Shown one piece after another: positions 9,872-55,414 of a DNA stretch of 64,000 nt (position 1 is its first letter; every line of letters starts with the position of its first letter). The notes under the pieces were generated by a model. It was given only the letters and a program-made list of their open reading frames with translations. It was not told the origin of the DNA and searched no databases. The stretch is taken from assembly GCF_004004565.1 (NCBI RefSeq), contig NZ_SACM01000002.1:248001-312000 (forward strand), read 5' to 3'. The stretch comes from Inhella crocodyli. Its GTDB lineage: Bacteria > Pseudomonadota > Gammaproteobacteria > Burkholderiales > Burkholderiaceae_C. A program made the position numbers and the translations under genes.

Positions 9872-10050
9872 TGTTGGCCGGTCTCCGGGCTGGCGGCGCG
9901 AACCCGGTCGCCTTCCCAGCGCGAACGCCAGTGGCAGTGACCGGGCCGAAGGGCGCTTGCGAAGCACCCCTGGCCGCTTACCGTTGCGGGGACAGCTCAG
10001 GTTGGGCCGCCGGCGTGCTGCCGACCGGCCTCCCTGATTCCCGTTGAACT
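9872..10050 (-). promoter_or_regulatory. Cobalamin riboswitch upstream of btuB
   Basis: Read on the minus strand, the leader contains AACGGGAATCAGGGAGGCCG, then the conserved core CCCCGCAACGGTAAGCG, the B12-box segment GTCACTGCCACTGG, CTGGGAAGGCGACC, and a closing AGCCCGGAGACCGGCCAAC. These elements, in this order, define the cobalamin riboswitch. It lies about 85 bases before the btuB start, and binding of adenosylcobalamin would lower expression of btuBFCD. Confidence 0.95.
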
Positions 10051-10099
10051 GCGACCCCCGGGCGGGCGTCGCGAGCACCAACGGGGTGCATTGTGCCTT

Positions 10100-10513
10100 T
10101 CAGCGGCTGGCGGCTGGGCTGGGGGCGCCGGCGGCGCGGGGCTTGGGGCCGCGTGCGTGGCGCACCCGAGGGTCCGGCGCGGGGCGCGAGGCCGCGGGGC
10201 CTGGTGCAGGGGGCGCGGGGGGAGGGCGGTTGGCGCGCAGCGCCGCCCGCTCGGCCGCTTCGCGCTCGCGCGCCTGTTGCGCCCCGCGTTGCTGCTCGGC
10301 GCGGGCGCGGGCCCGGGCGGCGCGCCGGTCGGCGTCGCTGGGTTCGTCGTAGGCGACGTCCGAGCCCGCCGCCTCGGGGCCACAGGGGCGGTCGCTCAGG
10401 GTGTTGCCGCAGCGGTACAGCGTGCGCTGCTCGCGCCGCGTTTGGGCCAGGGCGGGGGCGGCCAAGGCCGCCAGCGGCAGCAGCGACAGCCTCAGCACGC
10501 CCCGGCGTCTCAT
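10100..10513 (-). CDS. Small secreted Cys-containing protein of unknown function
   Basis: A 137-residue protein with a signal peptide ([24 protein letters not shown]). A short motif [16 protein letters not shown] follows, of the kind seen in many unannotated Burkholderiales periplasmic proteins. The middle is a charged Arg/Ala/Glu-rich helix (about residues 60-100), probably a coiled coil, and the C-terminal tail is rich in Pro and Arg. The ATG overlaps the pth stop as ATGA, so it is probably co-translated with pth. The function is unknown. The tail composition resembles low-complexity GC-rich extension. Confidence 0.75.
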
Positions 10514-15488: not shown

Positions 15489-17197
15489 ACCAGCCCACGC
15501 GCATTCGACTGGGCGACCTGCTGACGCAGGAAGGGCTGCTGCAGCCGGCGCAGTTGCAAGAGGCGCTGGCCGAGCAGAAGGCCACCGGCCGCAAGCTGGG
15601 CCGCATCTTCGTGGAGCGCGGTTGGGTCACCGAGGTCCAGATCGCCAAGACGGTGGCCCGGCAACTGCGCGTGCCCTTCCAGGACGTCAGCAACCTGTCG
15701 GTGCGCGCCGACATCGCCCGCCTCTTGCCCGAAGGGCAGGCCCGTCGCCTGCGCGCGATGGTGATCGAGTCGGCGGCCGACAGCCTGCGCGTGGGCATGG
15801 CCGACCCCACGGACATGGCGGGCTTCGACGAGATCGCCCGCATCCTGAAGCGCGAGTTCCAGCTCGTGGCCGTGGCCGAAAGCCAGCTGATGGCGCTGAT
15901 CGACCGCAGCTACAGCGGCGCCAGCGAGATCGCCGGCCTGGCCGAGCAACTGACCAGCGACCTGGCCAGCGTCGACGACGCGTTGGGCGACCTGCTGGGC
16001 CTGAGCTCGGTGGGCGCCGACGAAGCCCCCGTGGTGCGCCTGCTGCAAACGGTGTTCGAAGAGGCGCTGCGCCGCCGCGCCAGTGACATCCACATCGAGC
16101 CGCAGCAGGGCAGCCTGCGCATCCGCTTTCGCGTCGACGGGGTCTTGCACATCCAAACCGAAGCCGACGCCAAGATCAGCGCCGCGGTGGCCCTGCGCCT
16201 GAAGCTGATGAGCGGGCTCGACATTTCCGAGCGCCGCCTGCCGCAAGACGGTCGCTTCCACGTCAAGCTCAAAGGCGGGGGCGTGGACGTGCGCATCTCC
16301 ACCATGCCGACGCAGTTTGGCGAGTCGGTGGTGATGCGCTTGCTGAACCAAAGCACGGGCCTGCTGAGCCTGCCCGGCTTGAGCCTGCCGGAGCACGTGC
16401 ACGGCGCCATCCAGCGCGCGATCGACCGCCCGAGCGGCATGTTCTTGGTCACCGGCCCCACGGGCAGCGGCAAGACGACCACGCTGTACGCAACGCTCAA
16501 TGCGCTGAACAACAGCGAGCGCAAGATCATCACGGTGGAGGACCCGGTCGAGTACCGCTTGCCCGGGCTGAACCAGGTGCAGGTGCACGAGAAGATCGAG
16601 CTCGGGTTCGAGCGCGTGCTGCGCGCCGCTTTGCGCCAAGACCCGGACGTCGTGCTGGTGGGCGAGATGCGCGACCAGACGACGGCCGAAGTGGGCATGC
16701 GCGCGGCCATGACCGGCCACCTGGTGCTGAGCACTTTGCACACCAACGACGCCCTCTCGACCCCCATCCGGCTCTTGGACATGGGCGTGCCCCGCTACAT
16801 GGTGGCGCTGTCCTTGCACCTCGTGCTCGCGCAGCGCTTGGTGCGCACCGTTTGCAAGCACTGTGCCGAGCCGCACGCGCCCGATGCCCGCGAGGTGGCG
16901 TTGGTGGAGGGCTTGGGCCTGAGCCTGGAGGGTGCGCGCTTCATGCGCGGCCGCGGCTGCGTGCACTGCAACGACACCGGCTACGCCGGCCGCACCGGCG
17001 TCTACGAGTTCTTGGAAATGGACGGCGACCTGGTCACCCTGATGAACCGGGGCGACAGCGAGGGCTTCACGCAACTGGGCCGCCAACGCATGCGCGGCAA
17101 CACCCTGCGGCACGACGCCACGCGCCGTGTGCTGCAGGGCGTGACCACCCTGGACGAAGCCTTGCGCGTGTCGGTGCACGTCGACGAGGACGACTGA
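15485..17197 (+). CDS. mshE: MSHA pilus extension ATPase MshE with c-di-GMP-binding MshEN domain
   Basis: A 570-residue hexameric ATPase that drives pilin polymerisation at the inner membrane. Residues 8-31 read RLGDLLTQEGLLQ then PAQLQEALAEQ, matching the known c-di-GMP-binding motif RLGx...G...L...L..Q; a second related copy follows (KLGRIFVERGWVTEVQI). Walker A is GPTGSGKTTT near residue 323. The Asp and His boxes are in IITVEDPVEY and STLHTNDA, and a Zn site is formed by CKHC and CVHC. Pilus extension is therefore likely switched by c-di-GMP. The usual mshM and mshN are not found between mshL and this gene. Confidence 0.95.
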   Translation: MNQPTRIRLGDLLTQEGLLQPAQLQEALAEQKATGRKLGRIFVERGWVTEVQIAKTVARQLRVPFQDVSNLSVRADIARLLPEGQARRLRAMVIESAADSLRVGMADPTDMAGFDEIARILKREFQLVAVAESQLMALIDRSYSGASEIAGLAEQLTSDLASVDDALGDLLGLSSVGADEAPVVRLLQTVFEEALRRRASDIHIEPQQGSLRIRFRVDGVLHIQTEADAKISAAVALRLKLMSGLDISERRLPQDGRFHVKLKGGGVDVRISTMPTQFGESVVMRLLNQSTGLLSLPGLSLPEHVHGAIQRAIDRPSGMFLVTGPTGSGKTTTLYATLNALNNSERKIITVEDPVEYRLPGLNQVQVHEKIELGFERVLRAALRQDPDVVLVGEMRDQTTAEVGMRAAMTGHLVLSTLHTNDALSTPIRLLDMGVPRYMVALSLHLVLAQRLVRTVCKHCAEPHAPDAREVALVEGLGLSLEGARFMRGRGCVHCNDTGYAGRTGVYEFLEMDGDLVTLMNRGDSEGFTQLGRQRMRGNTLRHDATRRVLQGVTTLDEALRVSVHVDEDD

Positions 17198-17199
17198 AC

Positions 17200-18441
17200 G
17201 TGCCCCGGTTCAGCTACACCGGCTACAACGCACAAGGCCAGCAGCAGGGGCACTTGGACGCCGCCAGCGCGGGCGAGGCGGCCGATGCCTTGCAGGCCAT
17301 GGGCATTTCGCCCCTGCGCATCGAGCCCGAGGGCAGCGCTGCCGCCGGTGACGCCGGGCCGGCGTGGATGGAGCGCCTGCAGCAATGGCTGCGCCGCGGC
17401 ATCCAGCCGGTGGACATGCTGCTCTTCGCCCGGCAACTGCACACCCTGTTGAAGGCCGGCGTGCCGATCTTGCGCGCGCTGGCGGGCCTGACCGAGTCGG
17501 CCACCAGCCAGCGCCTGCGCGAAACCTTGCAGGCGGTGCGCGCCAGCCTCGAATCGGGCGTGGAGCTGAGCCGTGGCTTTGCGCAGCACCCCAAGGTGTT
17601 CGACGCCTTCTTCGTCAGCATGGTCCGCGTGGGCGAGATGACCGGCCGGCTCGACGAAATCTTCCTGCGGCTCTACCACCACATGAGCTTCGAGCAGTTC
17701 ATGCGTCAGCAGGTCAAGTCGGCGCTGCGCTACCCGATGTTCGTCATCATCGCCATGGTGGTGGCCATCGGCGTCATCAACGTGATGGTGATCCCGGCGT
17801 TCGCGGGGGTGTTCAAAACCCTGGGCGCCGAACTGCCCCTCGCCACGCGCATTTTGCTGGCCACGTCGAACTTCACCATCACCTACGGCTGGGCCCTGGT
17901 GGCCGCCGCGGTGGCGGCGTTCCTGGTGTTCCGGCAATGGGTGGCCACCGAGCCCGGCCGGTTGGCCTTTGACCGCTTCAAGCTGCGCATCCCCATCGCC
18001 GGGCCGATCGTGCTCAAGGCGCAGTTGGCACGCTTGGCGCGCAGCCTGGCGCTCGCGCTGCGCAGCGGCGTGTCCATCGAGCAGGCCTTGGTGGTGGTGG
18101 CGCAAACCTGCGACAACCAGCACATCGCCCGCAAGGTGGAGGGCATGCGAAGCGCCATCGAGCGCGGCGAGTCCCTGCTGCGTGCCGCGATCCAGGCGCA
18201 GGTGTTCACGCCCGTGGTGCTGCAGATGATCGCCGTGGGCGAAGAGACCGGCGCGGTCGACGAGCTCATGCAAGAGGTGGCCGACCTGTACAGCAACGAC
18301 GTCGAGTACGAGCTCAAGACCTTGGGTCAGCAGATCGAGCCCATCTTGATCGTCTTCCTTGGCATCCTGGTCCTCATCCTGGCCTTGGGCGTGTTCCTGC
18401 CCATCTGGGACCTGGGACGCGCCTCGCTGCGTGGCAAATGA
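17200..18441 (+). CDS. mshG: MSHA pilus inner-membrane platform protein MshG
   Basis: A 413-residue PilC/GspF-type protein, the membrane platform on which the ATPase acts. It has the tandem GspF domains: residues about 65-190 (LLFARQLHTLLKAGVPILRA) and about 275-395 (LARLARSLALALRSGVSIEQ), each followed by a membrane segment, and a C-terminal span LIVFLGILVLILALGVFLP. A GTG at 17200, two bases after the mshE stop, gives the usual N-terminus PRFSYTGYNAQG. Length is normal for the family. Confidence 0.93.
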   Translation: MPRFSYTGYNAQGQQQGHLDAASAGEAADALQAMGISPLRIEPEGSAAAGDAGPAWMERLQQWLRRGIQPVDMLLFARQLHTLLKAGVPILRALAGLTESATSQRLRETLQAVRASLESGVELSRGFAQHPKVFDAFFVSMVRVGEMTGRLDEIFLRLYHHMSFEQFMRQQVKSALRYPMFVIIAMVVAIGVINVMVIPAFAGVFKTLGAELPLATRILLATSNFTITYGWALVAAAVAAFLVFRQWVATEPGRLAFDRFKLRIPIAGPIVLKAQLARLARSLALALRSGVSIEQALVVVAQTCDNQHIARKVEGMRSAIERGESLLRAAIQAQVFTPVVLQMIAVGEETGAVDELMQEVADLYSNDVEYELKTLGQQIEPILIVFLGILVLILALGVFLPIWDLGRASLRGK

Positions 18442-18442
18442 C

Positions 18443-18955
18443 ATGCGCCGCTCGCACCGCCACCGCGGCTGGTCGCGCCTGGAGGCGGTGGCCATGTTGA
18501 TCGTGCTGGCCGTGTTGGCCACCTTGCTCCTGCACCGCTTGGCAGGGGTGGGGCAAGAGGCCCGGCGCGTGCAGCTGCGCATGGCGGCCGAGAACGCCCG
18601 CATCAATGCCCAGTTGATCGCGCTGCGTTGCCCGGTGGAGCTCGACTTGCCCTGCTGGCAGCGGGTGCTTCAGGACCTGCAGCGCGTGAACCTGCGCGCG
18701 CCGCAAGGCCCCCTGGCGCCCGACCCGGAGGCCCAAATGCCGGTGCATGCCGATGTGCAAGCCTTGCTGCAAACGGTTGCGCTTGCGGCGGGCTTGCGAC
18801 AGCATGGCGGCGCTGGGCAGTCGTGGCAGCTGTTGCCCGATGGCCGCGACACCTTGCACGTGGCACTGCAAGGTGTGGCGCATTGCCGATTTTCTTTGCG
18901 CTGGGAGGGCCCCAACCGTCCCGTCAGCGTGCAGGATGCCGAAGACCTTTGTTGA
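18443..18955 (+). CDS. MshF-like small membrane-anchored pilus protein
   Basis: A 170-residue protein starting MRRSHRHRGWSRLEAVAMLI, with a pseudopilin-like hydrophobic N-terminal helix (about residues 15-33) containing a Glu (RLEAVAM) but no clear Gly at the prepilin peptidase site (GWSRLEA). The rest is a helical periplasmic domain with four Cys residues. Placed between mshG and the major pilin, the position held by mshF in Vibrio clusters, though sequence support for the name is weak. It is probably a membrane protein or unprocessed minor pilin. Confidence 0.7.
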   Translation: MRRSHRHRGWSRLEAVAMLIVLAVLATLLLHRLAGVGQEARRVQLRMAAENARINAQLIALRCPVELDLPCWQRVLQDLQRVNLRAPQGPLAPDPEAQMPVHADVQALLQTVALAAGLRQHGGAGQSWQLLPDGRDTLHVALQGVAHCRFSLRWEGPNRPVSVQDAEDLC

Positions 18956-18984
18956 CCCGTATTCCATCTTTCAGGAGCCAGACC

Positions 18985-19398
18985 ATGAAGCGCATCGCCC
19001 CCACCGCCCAAGCCGGTTTCACCATCATCGAGCTGATCGTCGTGATCGTCATCTTGGGCATCTTGGCCGCCACGGCCCTGCCCAAGTTCGTCGACCTGAG
19101 TTCGGACGCCAAGACCGCCGCGATCCAAGGTGTGGCGGGCGCTGCGGCATCGGCCCACACCCTGAACTACAGCGGTTGCGTGGTGACCAACCACACGGTG
19201 ACGGCCAACAAGTGCGTCAAGGTCGACAATTGCAGCCAAACGGCCAGCCTGCTGCAAGGCGGCCTGCCCACCGGCTACGAGGTCGTGGCCGCCGCCGCGG
19301 GCAGCACGGTCAAGGGCACGGCTTTCAGTTGCACCGTGCGCTTGACGGCCGAAACCACGGTCAACGCCACCTTCAACGCCATCGTGGCGGGCAACTGA
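18985..19398 (+). CDS. mshA: MSHA-type major pilin
   Basis: A 137-residue type IV prepilin. The leader MKRIAPTAQAG is cut before Phe in GFTIIELIVVIVILGILAA, leaving the mature N-terminus FTIIE with the conserved Glu5. The globular part has LPKFVDLSSDAKTAAIQGVA, typical of MshA, and four Cys that can make disulphides. AGGAG at 18973-18977 is a strong ribosome binding site, fitting a highly made subunit. It is the only clear major pilin candidate in the cluster. Confidence 0.92.
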   Translation: MKRIAPTAQAGFTIIELIVVIVILGILAATALPKFVDLSSDAKTAAIQGVAGAAASAHTLNYSGCVVTNHTVTANKCVKVDNCSQTASLLQGGLPTGYEVVAAAAGSTVKGTAFSCTVRLTAETTVNATFNAIVAGN

Positions 19399-45458: not shown

Positions 45459-45537
45459 GGGCCGCTAGCTCATGCTTGGTTAGAGCAGCAGACTCATAAT
45501 CTGTTGGTGCCGTGTTCGACTCACGGGCGGCCTACCA
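45459..45537 (+). tRNA. tRNA-Met (anticodon CAT), integration site of the element
   Basis: The acceptor GGGCCGC pairs with GCGGCCT, the D-arm is GCTC/GAGC, and the anticodon arm GCAGA-CTCATAA-TCTGT exposes CAT. The T-arm CCGTG-TTCGACT-CACGG follows, and CCA is encoded; the total is 79 bases with an enlarged D-loop. A CAT anticodon could also be tRNA-Ile2, which cannot be separated by eye. From 45491 its 3' part is the attL repeat. Confidence 0.92.
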
Positions 45538-45539
45538 AA
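45491..45539. repeat. attL: 49-bp direct repeat inside tRNA-Met
   Basis: These 49 bases (from GACTCATAATCTG in the anticodon arm to ACCAAA) are repeated without a mismatch at 55354-55402. The sequences diverge on both sides. This is the classic mark of tyrosine-integrase insertion into the 3' end of a tRNA gene, which is kept intact on this side. Confidence 0.97.
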
Positions 45540-45593
45540 ATCACTCACAGCGACAAGGACTTACGTCTCTTTCGGCGTTTCCACTTCAGCGAT

Positions 45594-45632
45594 CGACCCT
45601 GTAGGCGACCCTGTATGCGCGGGGCGACCCTG
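45594..45632 (+). repeat. Three direct copies of CGACCCTG at the left end of the element
   Basis: CGACCCTG occurs at 45594, 45606 and 45625, 55 to 95 bases inside attL. The first two continue GTA. A fourth copy in the same orientation is at 55192-55199, between attR and the integrase. Position at both ends suggests arm-type sites for the integrase or its accessory factor. Confidence 0.55.
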
Positions 45633-45634
45633 CG

Positions 45635-46108
45635 CTAGCGGGCTTCTCGCTGTAGGAAGGCGCGAATGGCGCCCCAATCGCTCAACCGATCCTTGAAGCC
45701 TGGGATGCGGCCAAGGGGCAGCTTGCCCCAAGCGTTTTGGTACGCCGCTGAGGCTGCTCGCACCTCTTCCGCCGGAAGGACGTAGAACTCGGGGGGAGCA
45801 ATCTCCCGTTTGCCGTCCTTAGATCCCCGATTCAACAGTGCGACCACGACGAAATCGGTGTCGAAGTTTTTGATGATGAAGCCCTCGGCGCCTGTGCGCC
45901 AGCGGCTCTTCACCTGGATTCGGGCTGAGGTGCCGCGCTCCGGGTCGATCGCCACGAGGTCGTAGCCTGGGTTGTTCGTGTACGTCTTGTGCGCGACGAT
46001 TCCCTCGACCAGCAGGTTGCCGAGCACAAGGAACTCGGCGCCTTCTGACTCAAGGCTCGTGTCTTGGCGCCGCGCTTTCCTCGGCGTCTCAGATGCAGAA
46101 GGGTCCAT
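45635..46108 (-). CDS. PD-(D/E)XK nuclease-like protein
   Basis: A 157-residue protein from the ATG at 46108. It contains EGAEFLVLGNLLVEGIVAHK, NNPGYDLVAIDPE and ARIQVKSRW, which form the D...QxK core of the PD-(D/E)XK nuclease fold. The rest predicts alpha/beta structure (FDTDFVVVALLN, FYVLPAEEV). It sits next to the left att site, 32 bases after the McrA-like HNH gene, and is probably co-transcribed with it. A DNA-cleaving role, perhaps in defence against other phages, is inferred. An open frame upstream reaches 46309, but lacks support. Confidence 0.65.
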   Translation of the reverse strand: MDPSASETPRKARRQDTSLESEGAEFLVLGNLLVEGIVAHKTYTNNPGYDLVAIDPERGTSARIQVKSRWRTGAEGFIIKNFDTDFVVVALLNRGSKDGKREIAPPEFYVLPAEEVRAASAAYQNAWGKLPLGRIPGFKDRLSDWGAIRAFLQREAR

Positions 46109-46140
46109 AGCTTCAGCGGGCAAGTTGAGTGCTCCCTTCG

Positions 46141-46872
46141 TCAAGTTGCCTGGCACAGTGCCGCTCGCAAGTCCTCGACCGACGCCCATCCACGCCGCGT
46201 CTGCATGAGTCGGTGGATGAGTCGGTGACAGCTCGCGCACAGTAGCGCCACATCGCTGGCTTTCGTCTTCGTCGCGTTGGTTTGCGACAGCGGCAGCTTG
46301 TGATGGCACTCAAACTCGGCTTCCGCGATCGAGGCATCAGCGGTGAGTGGCGGCCGGGCGCAGCATTCGCATACGAGTGGTCCGATCGCGCGCCGAGCCT
46401 TCAGGACCTTCCGCCTGAGAGCTGGACTGCGCTCGCGGACCTTGTGTGCCGCCGTTAGGACGCGTCCCTCGGAGAACTCTTCGTCGTCCTCCGCGGTCGC
46501 CGCTTCGGCCGCCACGGAGGCATCGCCGGCCTGCGCTCTGATTTGAGTTGCTAGTTGCCGCACCAAATCGGGCTTATGACCGAAGTCCTCCCAAACGGCC
46601 TTGTCTGTTGAGGAGAAGTTGTCCAAGCCCTTGCCAGTCGCCACTTGGTGGATGTTCTGCAATTTGAAGGCGACCCCGGCTGCATTCCGGAAGCGATCAT
46701 TCTTCTTGGCGTCCGCATGGATCGGAAGCTTTCGAAGCTCTTCCGACAGTGCCACAACGCGGTTGTCACTCGGCCCCGGAATGGTGTCGCCGAGGGTGAG
46801 GTACAGGTCGAGCGCGAGTAGAACCTCGTCGCGCCCCCACTTCGGATTTCCGTGCCCTTGAGTTACAGCCAT
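46141..46872 (-). CDS. McrA-like HNH endonuclease
   Basis: A 243-residue protein. The N-terminal part (about residues 10-110: KWGRDEVLLALDLYLTLGDT, ALSEELRKLPI, RFRNAAGVAFKLQNIHQVA) is the domain typical of HNH restriction-type enzymes. A charged linker follows. The C-terminal HNH has CECC, ECHHKLPLSQ and LLCASCHRLIH, forming the beta-beta-alpha metal site. Enzymes of this sort cut foreign or modified DNA, but specificity cannot be told. Lower GC content than the chromosome. A likely defence cargo of the element. Confidence 0.85.
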   Translation of the reverse strand: MAVTQGHGNPKWGRDEVLLALDLYLTLGDTIPGPSDNRVVALSEELRKLPIHADAKKNDRFRNAAGVAFKLQNIHQVATGKGLDNFSSTDKAVWEDFGHKPDLVRQLATQIRAQAGDASVAAEAATAEDDEEFSEGRVLTAAHKVRERSPALRRKVLKARRAIGPLVCECCARPPLTADASIAEAEFECHHKLPLSQTNATKTKASDVALLCASCHRLIHRLMQTRRGWASVEDLRAALCQAT

Positions 46873-46948
46873 CGAATCAACGCCTCCATTTGCCAGGTTC
46901 TTGTCGGATCACAGGGGCAGCAGTGTTGGGCTGCCAAGCTTGACTTAG

Positions 46949-47407
46949 CTACACGACCCTTGGATGCCGGTTCAGCAGGCCTCGTTGAGCGCGCCACCGA
47001 AGGAACTCCTCAACGTCCTTCGCGTGCTTGGCGAGGTTGCATTTCTCGCAGGCAAGGGTGATGTTGGCGGGCTCGTCGCGGCCACCTTTGGCGATCGGGG
47101 TCTTGTGGTCGACATGTCCGCTGCCGTTCAGTTCATCGGCACAGTAAGCGCATCGGTCGCCAAGCGCATTGCGAATTCGCTCGACGTCGGCGTCGGTGTA
47201 TCCGCGTCCTCCGGCTGCCGCTATCCGCTGGCGGCGCAACTCCGCTCGCTCGGATGCTGCGCCGACGTTCGCCGCGCTATGAGCCGCAACGTGCGCCCGA
47301 ACACAAGCTCGGCACTTCGTTCGGAAGTTCCCGTTTGGCGTATTGCCAAAGTGTTCCCGCGTCATGGGGTAGACGTTTCCGCAGCCGCTGCACTTCTGCG
47401 TTTGCAT
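46949..47407 (-). CDS. HNH endonuclease, small phage type
   Basis: A 152-residue protein. An N-terminal zinc knuckle is formed by CSGC and CRAC (about residues 6-35). A basic helical stretch follows, then a compact HNH domain: CAYCADELNGSGHVDHKTPI, AKGGRDEPANITLACEKCN and LAKHAKD. Small HNH proteins of this kind often lie next to phage packaging genes, where they nick DNA with the terminase. No terminase is present here. Opposite in direction to the neighbouring zinc-ribbon gene. Confidence 0.85.
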   Translation of the reverse strand: MQTQKCSGCGNVYPMTREHFGNTPNGNFRTKCRACVRAHVAAHSAANVGAASERAELRRQRIAAAGGRGYTDADVERIRNALGDRCAYCADELNGSGHVDHKTPIAKGGRDEPANITLACEKCNLAKHAKDVEEFLRWRAQRGLLNRHPRVV

Positions 47408-47477
47408 ATCGGAGCTCTCCCTATCGGTTGTTCTTTAGGCATTCTCTTCGGGCACACGCTCCGTGCTTCAATAACGA

Positions 47478-47945
47478 ATGGACATTACGACCATCGCAAC
47501 ACTCCTTGGCAACGTAAAGACTGCAACCGAGATTGCTAAGGCCATCAAGGACAGCGGCGCTACCCTCGAAGGAGCGGAGGCCAAGTTCAGGCTCGCGGAG
47601 CTCATTTCTGCGCTGGCAGATGTGAAGATTGAGGCTGCGACAGTGCAGGAGCAACTGCTGTCGGCTCAACTTCGTATCCGCGAACTGGAAGATGCCGCAA
47701 CAACCCACGCGGTGATGCGGTGGCAGCAGCCCTGCTACTGGAAGCCTGCGGGGGAAGGTCACCCCGACTTGCCTTACTGCCAGCCTTGTTACGACGAGCA
47801 CCGCCGCCTGTCTCTGCTTAACGACTGGGGCGAAGGGCAGTTTCGTTGCATGGTCTGCGGCAAGACTTTTGAGACACCAGAGCGCATCGAACGACGGCGC
47901 CAGCAGAACGCCGCTCAGATTGCCACTCGGTCTCGAACCATCTAA
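47478..47945 (+). CDS. Zinc-ribbon and coiled-coil protein, unknown function
   Basis: A 155-residue protein and the only gene of the element on the plus strand. Residues about 1-75 are helical, with a coiled coil around KIEAATVQEQLLSAQLRIRE. The C-terminal half holds three Cys pairs (CYW..., CQPC, CMVC) in a rubredoxin/zinc-ribbon-like arrangement, with WKPAGEGHPDLPYCQPCYDE. Such proteins occur as scattered accessory genes in phages and genomic islands. Function not recognised. Its stop overlaps the last bases of the convergent gene. Confidence 0.75.
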   Translation: MDITTIATLLGNVKTATEIAKAIKDSGATLEGAEAKFRLAELISALADVKIEAATVQEQLLSAQLRIRELEDAATTHAVMRWQQPCYWKPAGEGHPDLPYCQPCYDEHRRLSLLNDWGEGQFRCMVCGKTFETPERIERRRQQNAAQIATRSRTI

Positions 47946-48436
47946 GCAGAAAGTTGTCTGCGCTCCACCAGTCGCACCACATGCCCCTCCAACTCACAGC
48001 ACCCACCTGAGGCATGCAGCCTGCGGCGTAGGCCTGTGCTGAGCTGGCGACTGAGCGCCGTACTGGCCCCTAGCGCCCTCAGTGCCGCGGCGAGCGAGGG
48101 GTAGCTCACCCCATCGACCACGGCCATGTGGCGACGCTTGCGGCGAGCGGCTATCTGCGGGTCGCGCCATGTCTGAGCCGTGGCCTCGCTAATAGCGCGC
48201 CGCCTGGGCTCGTCGAGGATGCCTGCGAGGGGCTGCGGCTGGCTCAATGCGCTCAGCGGCTGGGCCTCTGGCTGGCGACAGGAGCGTCGTGAGGGCGGCA
48301 CGCGAGGCTCGACCAGCTCACCGATGAGGTGCCGCCGCGCGCTCTTCGATTCAGCAATGAACATCGCCCGCGCCTCGGGCTCGAAAGCCGAAGCGCGGGC
48401 GATGACGTAGAAGCCGGGCGCGGTGGCTGCGCTCAT
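47942..48436 (-). CDS. Unknown Arg-rich phage-type protein
   Basis: A 164-residue protein, not recognised. It contains GFYVIARASAFEPEARAMFI, an Arg/Ser-rich middle, and a C-terminal segment VVDGVSYPSLAAALRALGAS that resembles a small DNA-binding or capsid-accessory motif seen in phage intron-type NUMOD domains. It lies 15 bases after the capsid gene in the same direction and is probably in its operon. Confidence 0.6.
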   Translation of the reverse strand: MSAATAPGFYVIARASAFEPEARAMFIAESKSARRHLIGELVEPRVPPSRRSCRQPEAQPLSALSQPQPLAGILDEPRRRAISEATAQTWRDPQIAARRKRRHMAVVDGVSYPSLAAALRALGASTALSRQLSTGLRRRLHASGGCCELEGHVVRLVERRQLSA

Positions 48437-48451
48437 GCTCCTACGAGGGCC

Positions 48452-49606
48452 TTAGAACAAGCCGCGGGCGATGGCGTTGGGGCGGGCGATGGTGAACGCC
48501 GCGCGTGCCTCGGCCAGCATCGCCACCGTGTTCTTCACGAAGAAATCGGCGTGCGAGTCGGTCACCAGCAATTGGGCCTCCTGGCGCATCCATAGCGTTG
48601 CCGACTGCGCCAGCGCGCCGACCGTCAGCGTGCCTTCGGGCTGGTACTCGTGGGCGTACACCGGCACGCCCCACAAGCTGGCGGCATTGACGCCGCGAGG
48701 TACGCCGGCCAAGAACTCTTCGCTGCCGCCCGCCGACTTCTGCAGCTCAATGTCTGCCCAGTCCAGCGGGTTCAGGAAGATCGCGTCCGGCGTGTAGCCC
48801 AGTGCTTGCAGCTTGGCGATGGTGCGACGGATGCGCTCGATGCGCCCTTCGCCCGACACCACATCGGCCAGCGTCGTGAAGTTGCCCGGCTTGGCGAAGC
48901 CTTCCAGCTCGGCGTCGTCGCCATCACTGACGAGGATCTGTCGGATCAGCTCGCGCCGCACGCCGTCGAACAGCTCAGCGCGCAGGAACTCGGCAAGGCC
49001 GCTCACATCGTCCATGGCTTGCCGGCTGACCGGCGTCCAGTGAGCGATGGTGCTCACATCGGCGCGTTGCAGCGAGAACGTGAACCCGCTCTCCTTCTTC
49101 GCCACGCCCTCACGATCCGGCGAACCGTACTGCGAGGCGGCGAGCTGCTTTGCCGCGGTCATCTTCACCCACTCGACCGAGGACGAGGTGGCGATGCCGC
49201 GCGGGATGGCCTGCAGGATGGCGAGGTTCACATCGACCGCCGTGGGCACGACGATGCCGATGCGCTGGGCCTGCGACATGGGCGTGTCGGCGCCGGTGGA
49301 CTGGTTGGTGATCGTGGCCTTGGTCTGGAACAGATCGGCGGCCTTGAACTCGATGCCGGCTTTGCTGCCGCGGCCCGAGAACACATCGCGCATGGCGTCG
49401 CTGTCCTTGAGCTTCTTGGCGAGTGCGGCCAGGGGGTCGGCGGCGCCGCGCAGCTCTTCGACGCCGGCCGCAGTCTTGCGCTCCAGCTTGAGCAGCTTTT
49501 CCTTCAGCTCGGCCAAGTCTTCCTGGCTGGCTTCTTGGGATGCGTTCACCTTGGTGACGAGCGCCTTGACTTCGGCGGCGATGGCTTCGATGGTGACTTG
49601 AGACAT
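48452..49606 (-). CDS. HK97-family major capsid protein
   Basis: A 384-residue structural protein. Residues about 1-60 form a helical, coiled-coil delta-like scaffold (LVTKVNASQEASQEDLAELK), expected to be removed by the protease. The rest is the HK97 fold, with SSVEWVKMTAAKQLAAS, FTFSLQRADVSTIAHWTPVS, EFLRAELFDGVRRELIRQIL, DAIFLNPLDWADIELQ, and the late WGVPVYAHEY. Such proteins form icosahedral heads. The protease is encoded directly upstream. Full length, with no internal stops, which argues for function. Confidence 0.93.
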   Translation of the reverse strand: MSQVTIEAIAAEVKALVTKVNASQEASQEDLAELKEKLLKLERKTAAGVEELRGAADPLAALAKKLKDSDAMRDVFSGRGSKAGIEFKAADLFQTKATITNQSTGADTPMSQAQRIGIVVPTAVDVNLAILQAIPRGIATSSSVEWVKMTAAKQLAASQYGSPDREGVAKKESGFTFSLQRADVSTIAHWTPVSRQAMDDVSGLAEFLRAELFDGVRRELIRQILVSDGDDAELEGFAKPGNFTTLADVVSGEGRIERIRRTIAKLQALGYTPDAIFLNPLDWADIELQKSAGGSEEFLAGVPRGVNAASLWGVPVYAHEYQPEGTLTVGALAQSATLWMRQEAQLLVTDSHADFFVKNTVAMLAEARAAFTIARPNAIARGLF

Positions 49607-49617
49607 TGGGGAACCTT

Positions 49618-50262
49618 TCAGAGCTTGAGAGTGGCGAGCGCCGCGCGCACTTCTTCCAGAGCAGCGGCGGCGCGGTGTTCATCGGCTTCGGCAGCGTCGG
49701 CTTCGGCTAGTGCAGGGAATCCCTTCTGCACGATGGCTGCGGCTTGGCGGCGCGAGTAGCCGAGGTCTTGCAAGGCCCGTTGCAGCTCCTGCGCAGTGGC
49801 AGGCTTGCTGGCAGCCTTGATGGAATCGACGCGGGCAGCGGGATCGGCCGGGATGGTCACGACGCTGATCTCTGCGAGGTCGATGGTCTTGAGGACACGG
49901 AGGTCGCCGCGCTGTTCGGCGCCGCCGCTGGGCACGCGGAACCCAATGGACAGGCCATTGAGGTCGCCTGCGCGCAGCGACTCGAAGGCGTCACGCCCTG
50001 CGGCTGTGCGTAGGTTCAGCTCCCCTTGCACGCGCAGGCCGCGTGAGTCTTCTCGGACTTCGATCCAGCGCCCAATGGGCGCATCGGCGCGGTGAGCCCA
50101 GAGCATCACGGGCAGGCCCTTGGCGAGCGATGCCGCAAAGGCACCGGGCTGGATGGTGTCGCCGTAGCTGTCGATGCCGTTGAAGGTGCTGGCATAGCCG
50201 GCGATGACGCCTTGGGCGTCGGCGCGAACTTCCAGCAGGGGTGCAGAGCGGTGCGTAGTCAT
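49618..50262 (-). CDS. HK97-family prohead protease
   Basis: A 214-residue serine protease that matures the capsid. The catalytic triad candidates are H57 in LWAHRADAPIG, S105 in LNGLSIGF and E131 in LAEISVV. The N-terminus GVIAGYASTFNGIDSYGDTI is typical of the family. The C-terminal 70 residues are a helical extension that may be removed on maturation. It lies 11 bases before the capsid gene, the canonical protease-capsid order, but with no portal gene before it. Confidence 0.94.
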   Translation of the reverse strand: MTTHRSAPLLEVRADAQGVIAGYASTFNGIDSYGDTIQPGAFAASLAKGLPVMLWAHRADAPIGRWIEVREDSRGLRVQGELNLRTAAGRDAFESLRAGDLNGLSIGFRVPSGGAEQRGDLRVLKTIDLAEISVVTIPADPAARVDSIKAASKPATAQELQRALQDLGYSRRQAAAIVQKGFPALAEADAAEADEHRAAAALEEVRAALATLKL

Positions 50263-50359
50263 CGTGTCCTCGTTGATGCCGCGAGCACTCGCGGTCGCCG
50301 GTCACGAACACGGCCCGCGGTAACAACTCGCTGCGTTCGGAATCCTCTTCGTTATCGGT

Positions 50360-50608
50360 TCACAAAGGGGACACTCCCGCGCCTTCCTTCAGCAGCTCGC
50401 GCAGCATGGTCAGCCGCCAGCAGTGGGACTGCGGTGCGAGCAGATCGAAGCCGCCGGCCTCTGCGTCCTGCAACACAGAGCGCTCGGTTGGCGTGAGCTT
50501 GCGCCTGCGGGTGCGGAACACCGCCAGCGCGAGGGCCGCGCGGTGCGATAGCCGGGCCGCCTGGGCGCTGCCGCTGGGCGGGGTAGGGGGTAGGGTGGTC
50601 GATGGCAT
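50360..50608 (-). CDS. Small Arg/Leu-rich protein, unknown
   Basis: An 82-residue frame from an ATG at 50608. The part RLSHRAALALAVFRTRRRKL and LTPTERSVLQDAEAGGFDLL suggests a small helical protein. It continues the run of minus-strand genes and may be an accessory or regulatory protein of the element. A longer open frame upstream has the skewed composition of a shadow. Not recognised; moderate to low confidence. Confidence 0.5.
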   Translation of the reverse strand: MPSTTLPPTPPSGSAQAARLSHRAALALAVFRTRRRKLTPTERSVLQDAEAGGFDLLAPQSHCWRLTMLRELLKEGAGVSPL

Positions 50609-50712
50609 CGGATGGCTCCTGTGGGCCGCAGTTCCGGGTTTGCGATGGAGAAAGGGCGACCCCTCGGTTTCCATTTCTGTGGGTCGCCGGGTTTTCACCC
50701 GCCCCCAGGCCT

Positions 50713-50979
50713 TCAGTGATGCCGCATGGGCTCGACGTTCACCGTCGCCAGCTCGATGCGCTGACCGTCCGGCAGCAGCAGATCGAACGCCGCATCGGGC
50801 AGTGCATGGCCCACGGGCAGCACGAGCCGCATGTGGACAGTGGCGCCGCCCTCGATGGCGCTTGCGAGCTGCTTGTGCTTCTGGGCTGGTAGCTCGCTGA
50901 CCAGTTGCTCCAGCATCCGCATGGCGGCCCGGAACAGCGCTGTGGAGTCCTGCGTTTCGTTGGGTTGGTTGTTCGGCAT
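50713..50979 (-). CDS. Small protein of unknown function
   Basis: An 88-residue protein starting MPNNQPNETQDSTALFRAAM, then a helical part (LEQLVSELPAQKHKQLASAI) and a beta segment (TVHMRLVLPVGHALPDAAFD). Soluble. It lies just downstream of the repeat-rich gap at 50980-51252, whose repeats could be its promoter or the origin of the element. Function unknown. Confidence 0.65.
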   Translation of the reverse strand: MPNNQPNETQDSTALFRAAMRMLEQLVSELPAQKHKQLASAIEGGATVHMRLVLPVGHALPDAAFDLLLPDGQRIELATVNVEPMRHH

Positions 50980-51030
50980 AACTTTTCCTGTGGTGGGTTG
51001 GTCTGCGAGCCGCGGGCGGGAGGCCGGGAT

Positions 51031-51153
51031 TTCCCTCGCTGGGATAACTGGGTTTCCCTGGGATTCCTGTACTGGCTCTAAGGAACGATTTCGTAGTGGT
51101 CCCCGCGGGGGGGTTAGGAATCCCAGCGATTCCCAAGAATCCCAGCGAGGGAA
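51031..51153. repeat. Inverted and direct repeats in the 273-bp gap before the replication gene end
   Basis: TTCCCTCGCTGGGAT (51031-51045) has an exact inverted copy ATCCCAGCGAGGGAA (51139-51153). Within the right arm AATCCCAGCGA is also directly repeated at 51119 and 51138. Related GGGATTCC-type words lie between. This looks like a protein-binding array, possibly the replication origin. The remaining bases of the gap (50980-51030, 51154-51252) show nothing clear. Confidence 0.7.
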
Positions 51154-51252
51154 TTCCCTGCTACGGTCTGCAGGGCTGCGGCTTCCTTGCTCGCTGCTGA
51201 CCGCATATGCGCGTCGCTCTCATGGGCAAGCGACCGCGGCAGGCATGGGGTG

Positions 51253-53121
51253 TCAGAAGCCCTCACAGCTAGCCTCCCGCTCTTCGTCTGTTGCGGCGGT
51301 TGGCGCACCGACTGATGCCACCCGGAACGTCGTAGAGCTACCCGGCTTGGCCAGGACGCGCAGCACCATGCCCGCGGCAATCTGGTCTCGTCGCCGTCCC
51401 ATTGCGCGGCCTAGCTGCACGGCGGTCAGTGACTCCTCACGCCCGTAGCCGAAGGCATCCAGCACCGCGGCTCCGAACTTGCCCTCCCAACGCCAGCCGT
51501 CTCCCTCGGCCTTGGCGGCGGCCACAACACTGGCGGCAGTGAATGACGAGCCCCCGAACTTCTCTCGCAGCGCGGTCAGCGCCCCGGCCAGAGCCTCCAG
51601 CTCTGGGTTGGCCTGCTCGAAGTCGAGCGCTGCACGCGCCACAAAGTCGTTGAAGCCGAGCCACACAACCGCATCGCGCACGACTGCCGCCCATCGCTGG
51701 TAGCTGGCGAAGGGCACCACTCCCTTGGGCCTCTCCGCCGCAGGCACGGCCGCATACGACACCAAGATGCTCGCCAGGAGGCGCAGCAATTTCGGGCGGC
51801 GCTCGGCCAACGTACGGTGCAGATCGGGGTACGCATAGCGCCGAGTCATGGTGTTCTCGACTTGGGGGTCGAGCCTGATACGCACGGCCCGCCGCGCAAA
51901 GTCAATGTCCGTCGCCGCGTTGTTGGCGGTGATGAGCACCATGCAGCTCACGTCCAGGCTGGCCGTTTCATTCGAGCCCAACTTGCGATCCGAGAACTTT
52001 TCGCTCGTCACCAGGGCTGCCAAGGTCGGGCCGCCAATCGTGCTCTTCACGTTGTCGAACAGCACGAACGGATCGGCGGCCAGCAGCAGCGACATCACAA
52101 CCTTGCGCCGCTCTTCCTCGTCGGTGCTCAGCGGATTGGCCGCGATGGGCTCGCCGTTGTAGATCGTGCCAATGGCCTGCGCGGTCAGCGTCTTGCCCGA
52201 GCCCACGGTCGGCGCATCGAAGATGAACGCTGGGCGCGTAGGACAAGCGGCCAGCACCATTGGCGTTAGCAACGCAGCGAGGTAGGCAGCAAAGTCGTCG
52301 TCTGTGGAGAAGGCGAAGTCCCTCAGCTCGTCGGCGCGCATAGCCAGTACCTGGCGGCGCAGCTCTTCGCGTGGCAACACCTCCACGCGCTCCAGGCCAG
52401 CGGCGTCAGCGATGTAGTAACGGGTGGGGAAGTCATAGCCCTCTTTGGCATTGAGGGTTCCGTCCGCCGCCAGCAAGGGCCAACGGCTGATGCCGCGGAG
52501 CGGACGAACGTGCCTCCACGACCCCAACTCACGGAATGCAGCCGCGGCTTCCTTGGGCGCGTCCGTCAGCACGGCAGCAGTCTCCCGGTTCGGGCCCACG
52601 CGCACTGTGCGCAGCTTGTACATGGCGAACGTGGTGAGGAAGGCGTACCGCTCTGGCCTGGAACGACCATGGGCATCTAGGCCTTGGGCTTGCTGGCCGA
52701 ACAGCGTGCGGATCGTCGCCACGCTGGCCTGCACGGCGATCATCGACCGCGCGGCTCGCACCACGCCGTCGCTCCGGGCCTGCTCGGCGGGTACGACGCG
52801 CACCAGCGTCGCCCCACGCGAGAAGAGGTAGTGGCCCTGGCCCAGCGAGAGATCCAGCCACTCGACTTGCCGCTCCAGATTGCCGGAGGTCAGGACGAGG
52901 TCGTAGCCGTCCCGTAGGCCATCGATGCCTTTGCGGCGCTCGCCGGTCTCTGGGTCAAAGGCGCCGAGCAACTCCGCGACAGCCTGCTCGTGCTGCGGCG
53001 ATCTAGCGCGTTGCAGCACCGCCTCCGCAGCAGCAGAGATCGCATCGTTCTGCGCATCCAGCTCTGCCTGAAGCTTCTGCAAAGAGGCGGCTTCGAGTTG
53101 GTCAAGTGGGTCCACGATCAC
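51253..53121 (-). CDS. Helicase-like replication protein with P-loop ATPase domain
   Basis: A 622-residue protein from a GTG at 53121 that overlaps the preceding stop as GTGA. The N-terminal third (about 1-130) is helical, and a middle part (ISRWPLLAADGTLNAKEGYD, FPTRYY) resembles primase-helicases of phages and satellites. The ATPase has Walker A TVGSGKTLTAQ and Walker B DPFVLFDNV, then VLITANNAATD, suggesting AAA+/SF3-like helicase activity. A C-terminal winged-helix-like domain follows. No zinc finger or DxD primase motif is evident. Likely starts replication of the excised element. Confidence 0.82.
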   Translation of the reverse strand: MIVDPLDQLEAASLQKLQAELDAQNDAISAAAEAVLQRARSPQHEQAVAELLGAFDPETGERRKGIDGLRDGYDLVLTSGNLERQVEWLDLSLGQGHYLFSRGATLVRVVPAEQARSDGVVRAARSMIAVQASVATIRTLFGQQAQGLDAHGRSRPERYAFLTTFAMYKLRTVRVGPNRETAAVLTDAPKEAAAAFRELGSWRHVRPLRGISRWPLLAADGTLNAKEGYDFPTRYYIADAAGLERVEVLPREELRRQVLAMRADELRDFAFSTDDDFAAYLAALLTPMVLAACPTRPAFIFDAPTVGSGKTLTAQAIGTIYNGEPIAANPLSTDEEERRKVVMSLLLAADPFVLFDNVKSTIGGPTLAALVTSEKFSDRKLGSNETASLDVSCMVLITANNAATDIDFARRAVRIRLDPQVENTMTRRYAYPDLHRTLAERRPKLLRLLASILVSYAAVPAAERPKGVVPFASYQRWAAVVRDAVVWLGFNDFVARAALDFEQANPELEALAGALTALREKFGGSSFTAASVVAAAKAEGDGWRWEGKFGAAVLDAFGYGREESLTAVQLGRAMGRRRDQIAAGMVLRVLAKPGSSTTFRVASVGAPTAATDEEREASCEGF

Positions 53122-53510
53122 AGCGCACCCCCGGTCTTGCTCAGCGGATCGATGAACAGCGCGTCGGCGATGGTCTGCATGTCCGTGCCGGTCACGTTCC
53201 AGCGGTCGATGGTCAGGGCTTCGTCCTGCCAGCCCGCCAACATCGCTGCTTCTTGCAGTGCGTCCAAGTACCTGCGCACGCGGAGAGGCTTCACCACGCC
53301 TGTGTCGATGTGGTTGAAGATGGCCTCTCGACGGTGGCGGGCAGCGACCGTTGCAAGTTCCGCCCAGCGTGCAAGATCGACCGGGCGGCGAGGGGCGCAT
53401 GGCCTCTGCTGGCGTAGTTCCTTCGCAATGCGAAGGGCGGTGTTGATGAGCGCCTGGGTGCGCTCTGGGTCGCCGCGCAGCGGCCTGTTCCAGTAATGAA
53501 AGGGGTCCAT
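53118..53510 (-). CDS. Small basic protein of the replication module
   Basis: A 130-residue protein from the ATG at 53510 (MDPFHYWNRPLRGD). It has an Arg-rich, helical profile: ALINTALRIAKELRQQRPCA, ARWAELATVAARHRREAIFN, VRRYLDALQEAAMLAGW. It overlaps the helicase gene by four bases, so co-translation is likely. It could be a helicase partner or loader. Not recognised. Confidence 0.7.
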   Translation of the reverse strand: MDPFHYWNRPLRGDPERTQALINTALRIAKELRQQRPCAPRRPVDLARWAELATVAARHRREAIFNHIDTGVVKPLRVRRYLDALQEAAMLAGWQDEALTIDRWNVTGTDMQTIADALFIDPLSKTGGAL

Positions 53511-53600
53511 GACGGCTCCAGTTGTGGTCGAGAGCCGGCGTGCTTGAGCAGCAGCGGGGAAGTTTGGGGCTGACGGTGTTGGGGTTGCCGCCCCGACTTG

Positions 53601-53633
53601 GCCCGGCGCTGACTCCTGGCGCCGGGCTTTTTT
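53601..53633 (+). terminator. Rho-independent terminator on the plus strand
   Basis: A perfect 9-bp stem GCCCGGCGC / GCGCCGGGC (53601-53627) with a 9-base loop is followed by six T (53628-53633) on the plus strand. The T-run overlaps the stop of the minus-strand HTH gene. All adjacent genes are on the minus strand, so it must end an unrecognised plus-strand transcript. Confidence 0.65.
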
Positions 53634-53871
53634 ATGCGTGCTGCGCGGCCGAGGTGTTGCCCCGGAGCGCATCGATGAAGGCATCGAACTCGGCACGCGT
53701 GGCGTACCACTTGTTGCCCCGGCGCAGCGCGCGCGGAAACAAGTCAGGGTGGTCGCGGCGAAGCGCGTTGAGGGTCTTGGGCTTTAGGTCGCGCTCGTGA
53801 GCCCACTGTGCGTGGGAAACGATGCCGAGCGGGTTCAGCGACGCGGAAGGGTTGGGCGCGTTTGTGGGCAT
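53632..53871 (-). CDS. Small HTH protein, AlpA/excisionase-like
   Basis: A 79-residue protein with a helix-turn-helix of the excisionase type: VSHAQWAHERDLKPKTLNAL then RRDHPDLFPRALRRGNKWYA and TRAEFDAFIDALR. The pattern of helix-turn-helix plus the NKWYATRAEFDAFI wing fits excisionase/AlpA-like DNA-binding proteins that control satellite and P4-type elements. It lies between the integrase and the replication genes. It could activate excision or the late genes. Confidence 0.8.
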   Translation of the reverse strand: MPTNAPNPSASLNPLGIVSHAQWAHERDLKPKTLNALRRDHPDLFPRALRRGNKWYATRAEFDAFIDALRGNTSAAQHA

Positions 53872-54018
53872 GGTGGGTCAGTACTCAGAAGGGAGAGGCC
53901 TAGTTCTGAGTTCTGACCCTGTCGTGCAGTTCAGCCGATAGTCTGCACAGGGCCGCGCTTTCCCCCGTGATCACCACGGTAACCGGAGCGCATTTGGTCT
54001 TGGTCGCAGTCGAGCCGA

Positions 54019-55170
54019 CTACGCCGCAATTCGGACATTTTCGCTCAACGGAGGCGAAGCAGGCAACACTCCACGCGTTGCGTATAGGCGCCAAGTCTCA
54101 AGCATGGCCGCTTTCTGCGCCACACGCTGCGCCTTGTCGTAGTGCGCGCGGACAAGGGCTGACCGCTCCAGTCCATGGCTAAGCAAGAAGCCGCGTGCCT
54201 CGCCGCTGTACCCAAGCTCCGACAAGAAGGTTTCTGCTGTGCGGCGAATGTCCGTTGCGCGCAGCTTGCGCGGACCAAGAACATCGCGCAGCCGGTCGGC
54301 TCCCGCAGGCAGCTCCAGTGCACCAGCATCCAGTTCCGCGCGCATGGCTGCGGTGATGGGCAATACGTTCACCTTCTCGCGTGCGCCGCGGCCCTTGGTG
54401 TCGATGATGACCAGCGTGTCGCCGTCAACGGTGGCTCTGGCGAGCTGTGCGATGCGCTGCAAGGTGAGGACGGCAAGCCTGCCGAAAGCGCCAACGGGGC
54501 CGAGCCGTTGAAGTTCGCCCCAGAGCTGTTGGAGCGCCTCCGGCTCGATGACAACTGCCCGCGGCTGCTCGAACTCCGCGATGCGCGGAATGAGTGTGAC
54601 CGGGTTGATCTTGATCCCGAAGCGCGGCGAGCCCAGAGGGCGTCGCGGATCGAGGTCATGCCTGGCGCCGAAGTTGTAGGCAGCGCTCAGTGCCGCGCGT
54701 CCTCTGTTGACCGACGTTGTCTTGCCAGCCAAGACCTTCTCTCGCAACAGCTCGGCCAGCTCCTCTGACTCAACCAAGTTGGCCTGCTTGGCCGCAAGTG
54801 CGTGGCTCTGATCTTTGCCGAGCAGCCACCTCGTCAGGTTGCGCGTTTCCCTCGCGCTCGGCCGCTCGCCAAGTGACGCTGTGTAGGCCTCCATCAGCTC
54901 CCACAGAGTGCCGCCCTTCTGCCGGACGTCAGGGCGGCGACCCTCGGCCATGTCCTGGGCGAGCCTACGCGCTTCGGCCAGCGACAGTGCCGGGTAGTGG
55001 CCGATGGTGGCTGTTGAGTCACGCCCGTTCGACTGAGTGCGCAGCACCCAAGTCTTGGTCCGCGCCCGGACGATCAGCATCAGCCGCCCACCTCCGGCAA
55101 GCTGCGTGTCATCGGTCAGTTTTGCCGGCGCTTTGGCCGCCTCGATTGCTCGCGTTGTGAGCTTCGCCAT
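54019..55170 (-). CDS. Tyrosine recombinase/integrase
   Basis: A 383-residue integrase of the P4/DUF4102 type. The N-terminal arm-binding domain (LTTRAIEAAKAPAKLTDDTQ, TATIGHYPALSLAEARRLAQ) is followed by the core-binding region (about 90-190). The catalytic domain has the first Arg in LTLQRIAQLARATV, ATDIRRTAETFLSELG with RRT intact but Thr instead of the common His, LLSHG, and the nucleophile Tyr in RAHYDKA. It is nearest to attR, with the 5' end facing that site. Should catalyse exchange between the 49-bp repeats. Confidence 0.95.
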   Translation of the reverse strand: MAKLTTRAIEAAKAPAKLTDDTQLAGGGRLMLIVRARTKTWVLRTQSNGRDSTATIGHYPALSLAEARRLAQDMAEGRRPDVRQKGGTLWELMEAYTASLGERPSARETRNLTRWLLGKDQSHALAAKQANLVESEELAELLREKVLAGKTTSVNRGRAALSAAYNFGARHDLDPRRPLGSPRFGIKINPVTLIPRIAEFEQPRAVVIEPEALQQLWGELQRLGPVGAFGRLAVLTLQRIAQLARATVDGDTLVIIDTKGRGAREKVNVLPITAAMRAELDAGALELPAGADRLRDVLGPRKLRATDIRRTAETFLSELGYSGEARGFLLSHGLERSALVRAHYDKAQRVAQKAAMLETWRLYATRGVLPASPPLSENVRIAA

Positions 55171-55191
55171 GTGCTCTCCTGTGCCTCAACT

Positions 55192-55199
55192 CGACCCTG
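55192..55199 (+). repeat. Fourth CGACCCTG copy, right end of the element
   Basis: Same word and orientation as the three at the left end, located between the integrase start and attR. Apart from this, attR and the terminator, the 343-bp spacer 55171-55514 shows no gene. Confidence 0.45.
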
Positions 55200-55353
55200 A
55201 ATCCGGCCCTGGAAGCAAGCCGGTTGAACAAGGCGAAGTTTCGCTGAAGAGCGGCGAAAGAAGTTGTCTAAGTTGTTGATTGCAAAGGAGAAAATGGCGT
55301 CAACGAGGTCGATAGAAGGCGAAGGTGGGCGATGCAGGGCGAACGACCGGCGC

Positions 55354-55402
55354 GACTCATAATCTGTTGGTGCCGTGTTCGACTCACGGGCGGCCTACCA
55401 AA
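55354..55402. repeat. attR: second copy of the 49-bp tRNA-Met repeat
   Basis: Identical to 45491-45539. Only the 3' part of the tRNA is present here, from the anticodon arm on, so it is not a gene. The native chromosomal sequence resumes after ACCAAA. Confidence 0.97.
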
Positions 55403-55414
55403 TTCCCGACCGTC

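Follow-up and report, generated by a model that had tools for sequence, protein, structure and literature searches.

Known phage satellites either reshape the head of their helper with one or two proteins or, as the capsid-forming phage-inducible chromosomal islands (cf-PICIs) do, bring a complete head and motor, as far as the accounts in PMC12409344 and PMC10690885 go. The second of these, within what it sets out, lists for cf-PICIs a capsid protein, protease, portal, connectors, both terminase subunits and an HNH nuclease (PMC10690885). The Streptomyces phage satellites MulchRoom and MiniFlayer have capsid genes of their own along with portal, scaffold, adaptor and both terminase subunits, and no obvious replicases (PMC10690885). 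In Gram-negative PICIs a capsid gene can stand without a portal or large terminase, and 21 of 29 reference elements have a capsid gene (PMC10111431); PmCI172, which has a capsid homologue among its genes, forms small heads (PMC6092414). In SaPIbov5, the satellite-coded HK97-type capsid homologue Ccm forms only the pentamers of the helper shell (PMC8569155). Here we describe an element of ~9.9 kb (45491-55405) in a 64,000-nucleotide stretch of Inhella crocodyli DNA (hereafter the window), which encodes an HK97-type capsid protein and its prohead protease, with no portal or terminase gene recognised, and which is probably a satellite that borrows the remaining parts of its particle from a helper phage.

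The element is bounded by direct repeats of 52 bp (45491-45542 and 55354-55405; 51 of 52 positions identical, start-to-start spacing 9863 bp). An earlier interpretation of the same DNA, made without database searches (the sequence-only reading), had reported an exact 49-bp repeat at both ends, which corresponds to the first 49 positions. The left copy forms the 3' part of a tRNA-Met gene that is intact (45459-45537, + strand; ARAGORN). When the flanks were joined without the element, they matched one stretch of a genome from the same genus (G234) across the junction (72% identity, query positions 210-587), where the tRNA-Met gene is present and the element absent, that is, an empty site. These precise ends and the empty site agree with the earlier view of a discrete element at tRNA-Met. 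Related intact prophages at the same site, which by that reading would mark a deletion remnant, were not seen: the capsid protein has no relative in five other genomes of the genus, and one of these has the empty site. G+C content is 60-68% inside the element and mostly 69-74% in the flanks. All element genes lie on the - strand except one (47478-47945, +), and the integrase and one-way gene order are as in Gram-negative PICIs. From right to left, the order is integrase, small helix-turn-helix (HTH) gene, 130-aa gene, Rep-like ATPase, two small genes, protease and capsid gene, followed by the 164-aa gene, the + strand 155-aa gene, an HNH gene, a second HNH gene and a PD-(D/E)XK-like gene. The features are as follows.

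45459-45537, + strand: tRNA-Met (cat), intact, the integration site (ARAGORN; empty site in G234)
45491-45542, no strand: left end repeat (attachment site, att), 52 bp, repeat family D1
55354-55405, no strand: right end repeat (att), matching the left one at 51 of 52 positions, repeat family D1
54019-55170, - strand: integrase of tyrosine recombinase type, 383 aa (Pfam Arm-DNA-bind_3, 6.8e-13; PHROG integrase, 2.2e-14, residues 3-359)
53632-53871, - strand: small HTH protein, 79 aa, possible excisionase or regulator (HTH_17, E 0.0064, below the Pfam cut-off)
53118-53510, - strand: 130-aa protein, no family above threshold (Pfam and PHROG searches)
51253-53118, - strand: Rep-like ATPase, 621 aa, GTG start assumed (PHROG 29234, 3.9e-43; PHROG 19930, DNA polymerase/primase, 2.1e-20; GSGKT at residue 306)
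51018-51161, no strand: imperfect palindrome with short iterons (GAATCCCAGCGA), likely origin (46-nt arms, 83% complementary)
50713-50979, - strand: 88-aa protein, no family (Pfam and PHROG searches)
50360-50608, - strand: 82-aa protein, no family (Pfam and PHROG searches)
49618-50262, - strand: HK97-type prohead protease (S78), 214 aa, with H57/S105/E131 (Peptidase_S78, 8.9e-34; TIGR01543, 5.4e-33)
48452-49606, - strand: HK97-type major capsid protein of 384 aa that includes a delta domain (Phage_capsid, 2e-27; TIGR01554, residues 9-380)
47942-48436, - strand: 164-aa protein, no Pfam family
47478-47945, + strand: 155-aa protein, the only + strand gene of the element, no family above threshold
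46949-47407, - strand: HNH endonuclease, 152 aa (HNH, 2.8e-12; PHROG endonuclease VII, 8.4e-26)
46141-46872, - strand: second HNH nuclease of 243 aa, perhaps cargo for type IV restriction (HNH, 7.4e-6; PADLOC HNH, 6.4e-8, and mREase_IV, 3.5e-4)
45635-46141, - strand: PD-(D/E)XK nuclease-like gene (PDDEXK_5, 9.5e-5, just below the cut-off); its start is uncertain, and a longer open reading frame (ORF) would overlap the HNH gene

Both late proteins named in the sequence-only reading were recovered: the protease retains its catalytic H57, S105 and E131, and the capsid protein is intact, with its TIGR01554 match spanning nearly all of its 384 residues. The capsid protein aligns with HK97 gp5 over residues 27-384 (E 7.2e-35), and its K170, N359 and E366 align with K169, N356 and E363, the cross-link residues of HK97. 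An AlphaFold model computed from 79 aligned sequences reached a predicted local distance difference test (pLDDT) score of 83.9; its long N-terminal helix resembles that of a delta domain, and in Foldseek searches with it HK97-type phage heads ranked first; a model from a 9-row alignment was unusable (pLDDT 34.6) and was discarded. The integrase and replication protein of the earlier reading were likewise recovered, the latter called from the two PHROG matches and the GSGKT motif; it has no Pfam primase domain. The palindromic iteron array that adjoins rep downstream is likely the replication origin. As for the regulator, a small HTH gene is present as claimed, its assignment resting on a weak, sub-threshold HTH_17 match, and there is no clear AlpA. 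The reading frames of the integrase, rep, protease and capsid genes are uninterrupted and of full length, and no gene of the element is broken. The second HNH gene, the PD-(D/E)XK-like gene and one + strand gene are additions to the earlier gene list.

The claim that terminase, portal, connector and tail genes are absent was upheld, as no element gene had a Pfam or PHROG match to any of them. Setting aside the integrase, Rep and capsid protein, gene-like ORFs reach 243 aa at most, and those without assignment stop at 168 aa, which falls short of any known portal or large terminase (TerL); one of the small genes could conceivably encode a very divergent small terminase (TerS). No P4-like sid or psu capsid-remodelling family appeared among the PHROG and Pfam matches of the element. 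The host genome (17 contigs totalling 3.76 Mb, with completeness rated at 100%) had no PF04860 portal, no PF03354 and no phrog_2 terminase, other portal types not having been searched, and by these same searches holds no HK97-type helper. As a sole terminase test phrog_2 was dropped, because it misses the control genome G315 even though PF03354 terminases occur there.

A capsid alignment was scanned against 84,980 genomes, and this and other alignments against virus contigs. Absence of portal and TerL was scored from PF04860 and PF03354 searches of genomes, plus portal and TerL profiles derived from confirmed neighbouring genes; a virus contig whose capsid gene lies close to an end was not scored as portal-less. 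Most capsid genes in the scan had an adjoining portal, and 16 further elements lacked both portal and TerL; the list was drawn from best hits and carries no prevalence information. Eleven of the 16 lie between end repeats of 18-53 bp, ten of these at tRNA genes or tRNA-like repeats, and three are contigs with identical ends; most measure 8.5-10.5 kb. They occur in Alpha- and Betaproteobacteria, in Acidobacteria and in viromes; named hosts belong to the Rhizobiaceae, Erythrobacteraceae, Geminicoccaceae, Rhodocyclaceae and Acidobacteriaceae, with one further betaproteobacterium. Individually, they are:

L158: 28-bp repeat, tRNA-Ser, 9.4 kb
L162: 18-bp repeat, tRNA-Ser, 10.4 kb
L164: 50-bp repeat, tRNA-Thr, 9.1 kb
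L172: 53-bp repeat, tRNA-Phe, 10.5 kb
L178: 45-bp repeat, tRNA-Lys, 10.0 kb
L179: 53-bp repeat, tRNA-Val, 9.5 kb
L154: 45-bp repeat, tRNA-Ala, 10.0 kb
L157: 48-bp repeat, tRNA-Arg, 10.1 kb
L181: 48-bp repeat, tRNA-like, 8.5 kb
L175: 19-bp repeat, no tRNA found, 8.5 kb
L352: 51-bp repeat, tRNA-Arg, 9.6 kb
L032: identical contig ends, probably circular, 9.5 kb
L044: identical contig ends, probably circular, 10.5 kb
L341: identical contig ends, probably circular, 10.3 kb
L020: two related tandem copies, 9.75 kb apart
L356: 11-kb contig, ends not found

Integrases were seen in most of the 16 and in neither L032 nor L044; L164, L172 and L044 had no recognisable protease. Five elements encode tape measure proteins (L158, 11213-13039; L172, 10845-12473; L178, 12305-14320; L044, 7673-10612; L341, 6657-10013), which might fix the tail length of the particles used. 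Small terminases were found in L154, L157, L020 and L032.

Capsid and protease genes are under purifying selection in the three pairs of comparable elements for which ratios of nonsynonymous to synonymous substitution (dN/dS) were computed by the Nei-Gojobori method. Between the L020 copies dN/dS was 0.17 for capsid and 0.17 for protease. For L154 and L157, at two sites in one genome, the values were 0.20 and 0.16, and for L178 and L179 they were 0.21 and 0.26, both pairs being rough estimates at high synonymous divergence. A quick tree was made of 87 capsid proteins, 15 of them portal-less; these required 7 label changes (well supported branches demand at least 5) vs 14 in shuffles. This suggests several origins, partly clustered; a single common origin is not favoured, given those minimum five changes. 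The window capsid protein pairs with another long branch in this tree, and its placement is unsure.

Several further observations were made on the comparable elements. L154 (5280-15336, tRNA-Ala) and L157 (8083-18249, tRNA-Arg) share one Acidobacteriaceae metagenome-assembled genome; in both, the capsid gene precedes the protease and a P27-like small terminase is present. Several elements have, immediately before their protease or capsid gene on the upstream side, a small gene of ~75-105 aa that belongs to no known family (L162, 8796-9071; L172, 8811-9083; L178, 8614-8847; L179, 8568-8822; L020, 12113-12433). The cargo slot past the capsid gene varies, with a Fic and a ClpP-like protease gene in L162 (11590-13376), an Mrr-like gene recognised by eye in L179 (10868-11956), and the HNH and PD-(D/E)XK genes in the window (45635-46872). 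Next to the L158 satellite, another small island (14634-19231) is marked by a second 48-bp tRNA-Arg repeat. Two candidates were set aside: L180 of Collimonas humicola (9876-10489) is a true remnant, in which an integrase start of 76 aa leads into the C-terminal 110 aa of a capsid protein, and L316 was inspected and excluded from the list.

We consider it probable, with moderate confidence, that the window element is an integrative, PICI-like satellite with its own shell and protease, relying on the portal, motor and tail of a helper. Borrowing of helper portal and motor is the best reading because the same limited gene set recurs in complete elements of similar size. The sequence-only reading had suggested that so reduced a set may use helper packaging and portal; this part is supported, given the recurrent set and the lack of packaging genes, and the comparison with cf-PICIs that went with it has turned into a separation from them by gene content. 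More tentatively, the elements may reflect a satellite design that evolved repeatedly in Proteobacteria and Acidobacteria, with own shell and protease, sometimes a tape measure or TerS, and helper portal, motor and tail, such that a shell encoded by the satellite would assemble onto a portal of foreign origin.

With a helper phage present, the integrase would excise the element as a circle of ~9.86 kb, which would replicate from its own Rep and iteron origin. The element would make its HK97-type shell protein and the protease that removes its delta domain; because it carries no portal, terminase, connector or tail genes, the shells would have to start on the helper portal, be filled by the helper terminase and be joined to helper tails. 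The satellite shell, whole or mixed with helper capsid protein (as with Ccm of SaPIbov5), would determine a small head, with room for ~10 kb and too little for the helper genome. The helper, induction, excision, origin, head size and the borrowed portal, motor and tail are what we infer from this arrangement. Phage interference may accompany the satellite role, and the nuclease genes of the element look like defence cargo.

Several observations weigh against this reading, and most of them bear on the alternative that a cf-PICI or prophage lost its portal, terminase and connectors and that protease and capsid genes were merely left behind. Within its family the design is singular: S78 proteases (E <1e-20) occur at 21 places in 301 same-family genomes, a PF04860 portal lies within ~2.1 kb of 20 of them, and the window protease is the one without. 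The capsid protein is a long, lone branch in the tree, with no relative above ~38% identity in the genome and virus-contig scans, so that no dN/dS could be computed on the window gene itself; among virus contigs, the Rep query had no match and the protease-alone query one relative. The cargo after the capsid gene is also not of phage type. A deletion remnant is nevertheless unlikely. No gene is broken, the ends are precise, and active-site and cross-link residues are kept. Moreover, the window element is probably not a random remnant because the same limited set recurs in complete, similar-size elements, drawn from several capsid lineages, with purifying selection in the three pairs.

Another possibility, which we regard as improbable on its own, is that the shell protein and protease disrupt head assembly by the helper and serve chiefly to protect the cell, with no packaging of the element. 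Satellites do interfere with helpers through capsid redirection (PMC8569155, PMC12409344), and the element also holds restriction-like nucleases; however, an element with an integrase and Rep of its own and a likely origin looks mobile, and the tape measure and TerS genes of comparable elements suggest particle making. Such a role is compatible with the satellite reading that we favour. Equally improbable is that the late genes were captured and have no needed role. Capsid genes are common in Gram-negative PICIs (PMC10111431), and that of EcCICFT073 proved dispensable when deleted (PMC6092414, PMC10111431), a result that also counts against the satellite reading, whereas in the three pairs of comparable elements protease and capsid genes are kept together and under purifying selection. 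A self-sufficient particle, with a novel portal or motor among the several small genes without family, or a nanocompartment, as a weak match to family 3 encapsulins might hint (8.6e-7, 28 bits vs a cut-off of 180), is very improbable, as the unassigned ORFs are too short and delta domain and protease are as in phage heads.

If the satellite reading is true, shell and portal can derive from different genomes, and one could test directly how portals and shells match and by what path lone capsid genes might lead to full cf-PICIs. The recurrence across bacterial groups suggests that some unexplained 8.5-10.5-kb tRNA islands may move likewise.

Compared with the described systems, the window element shares with cf-PICIs, as far as these are characterised in the source cited above, an HK97-fold capsid protein, maturation protease and integrase, and differs in lacking the portal, connectors and terminase subunits listed for them; it also has HNH genes (two), which may or may not act in packaging. 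It is not a cf-PICI, because portal and terminase were looked for and not found. As in the Gram-negative PICIs EcCICFT073 and PmCI172, it is a small att-flanked island with integrase, possible regulator, Rep-like gene, likely origin and late genes in one-way order, the capsid gene among them standing without portal or large terminase (PMC6092414, PMC10111431); unlike them, it has an S78 protease beside the capsid gene and no clear AlpA, its host lies outside the Gammaproteobacteria as we use that name, it measures 9.9 rather than 10-20 kb, and a helper is known only for them. With SaPIbov5, whose small heads use helper parts (PMC8569155), it shares a capsid homologue without portal or TerL; unlike SaPIbov5, for which no protease is known, it carries one, and its shell protein may form the shell wholly or in part. 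MulchRoom and MiniFlayer are likewise satellites with their own capsid gene but, unlike the window element, encode portal, scaffold, adaptor and both terminase subunits and have no obvious replicases. The AH14b satellite, considered as a precedent, takes its virion proteins from its helper (PMC4936722). Satellites with a lone capsid gene had been described before, among them SaPIbov5 (PMC8569155), PmCI172, EcCICFT073 (PMC6092414) and most reference Gram-negative PICIs (PMC10111431). What looks new is the presence of a protease next to the capsid gene, the range of hosts beyond Gammaproteobacteria and the recurrence in complete 8.5-10.5-kb elements; we found no protease-plus-capsid satellite described in the searchable literature, where an earlier mention is possible. 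Elements with shell and protease only thus sit between the satellites that reshape a helper head and the cf-PICIs.

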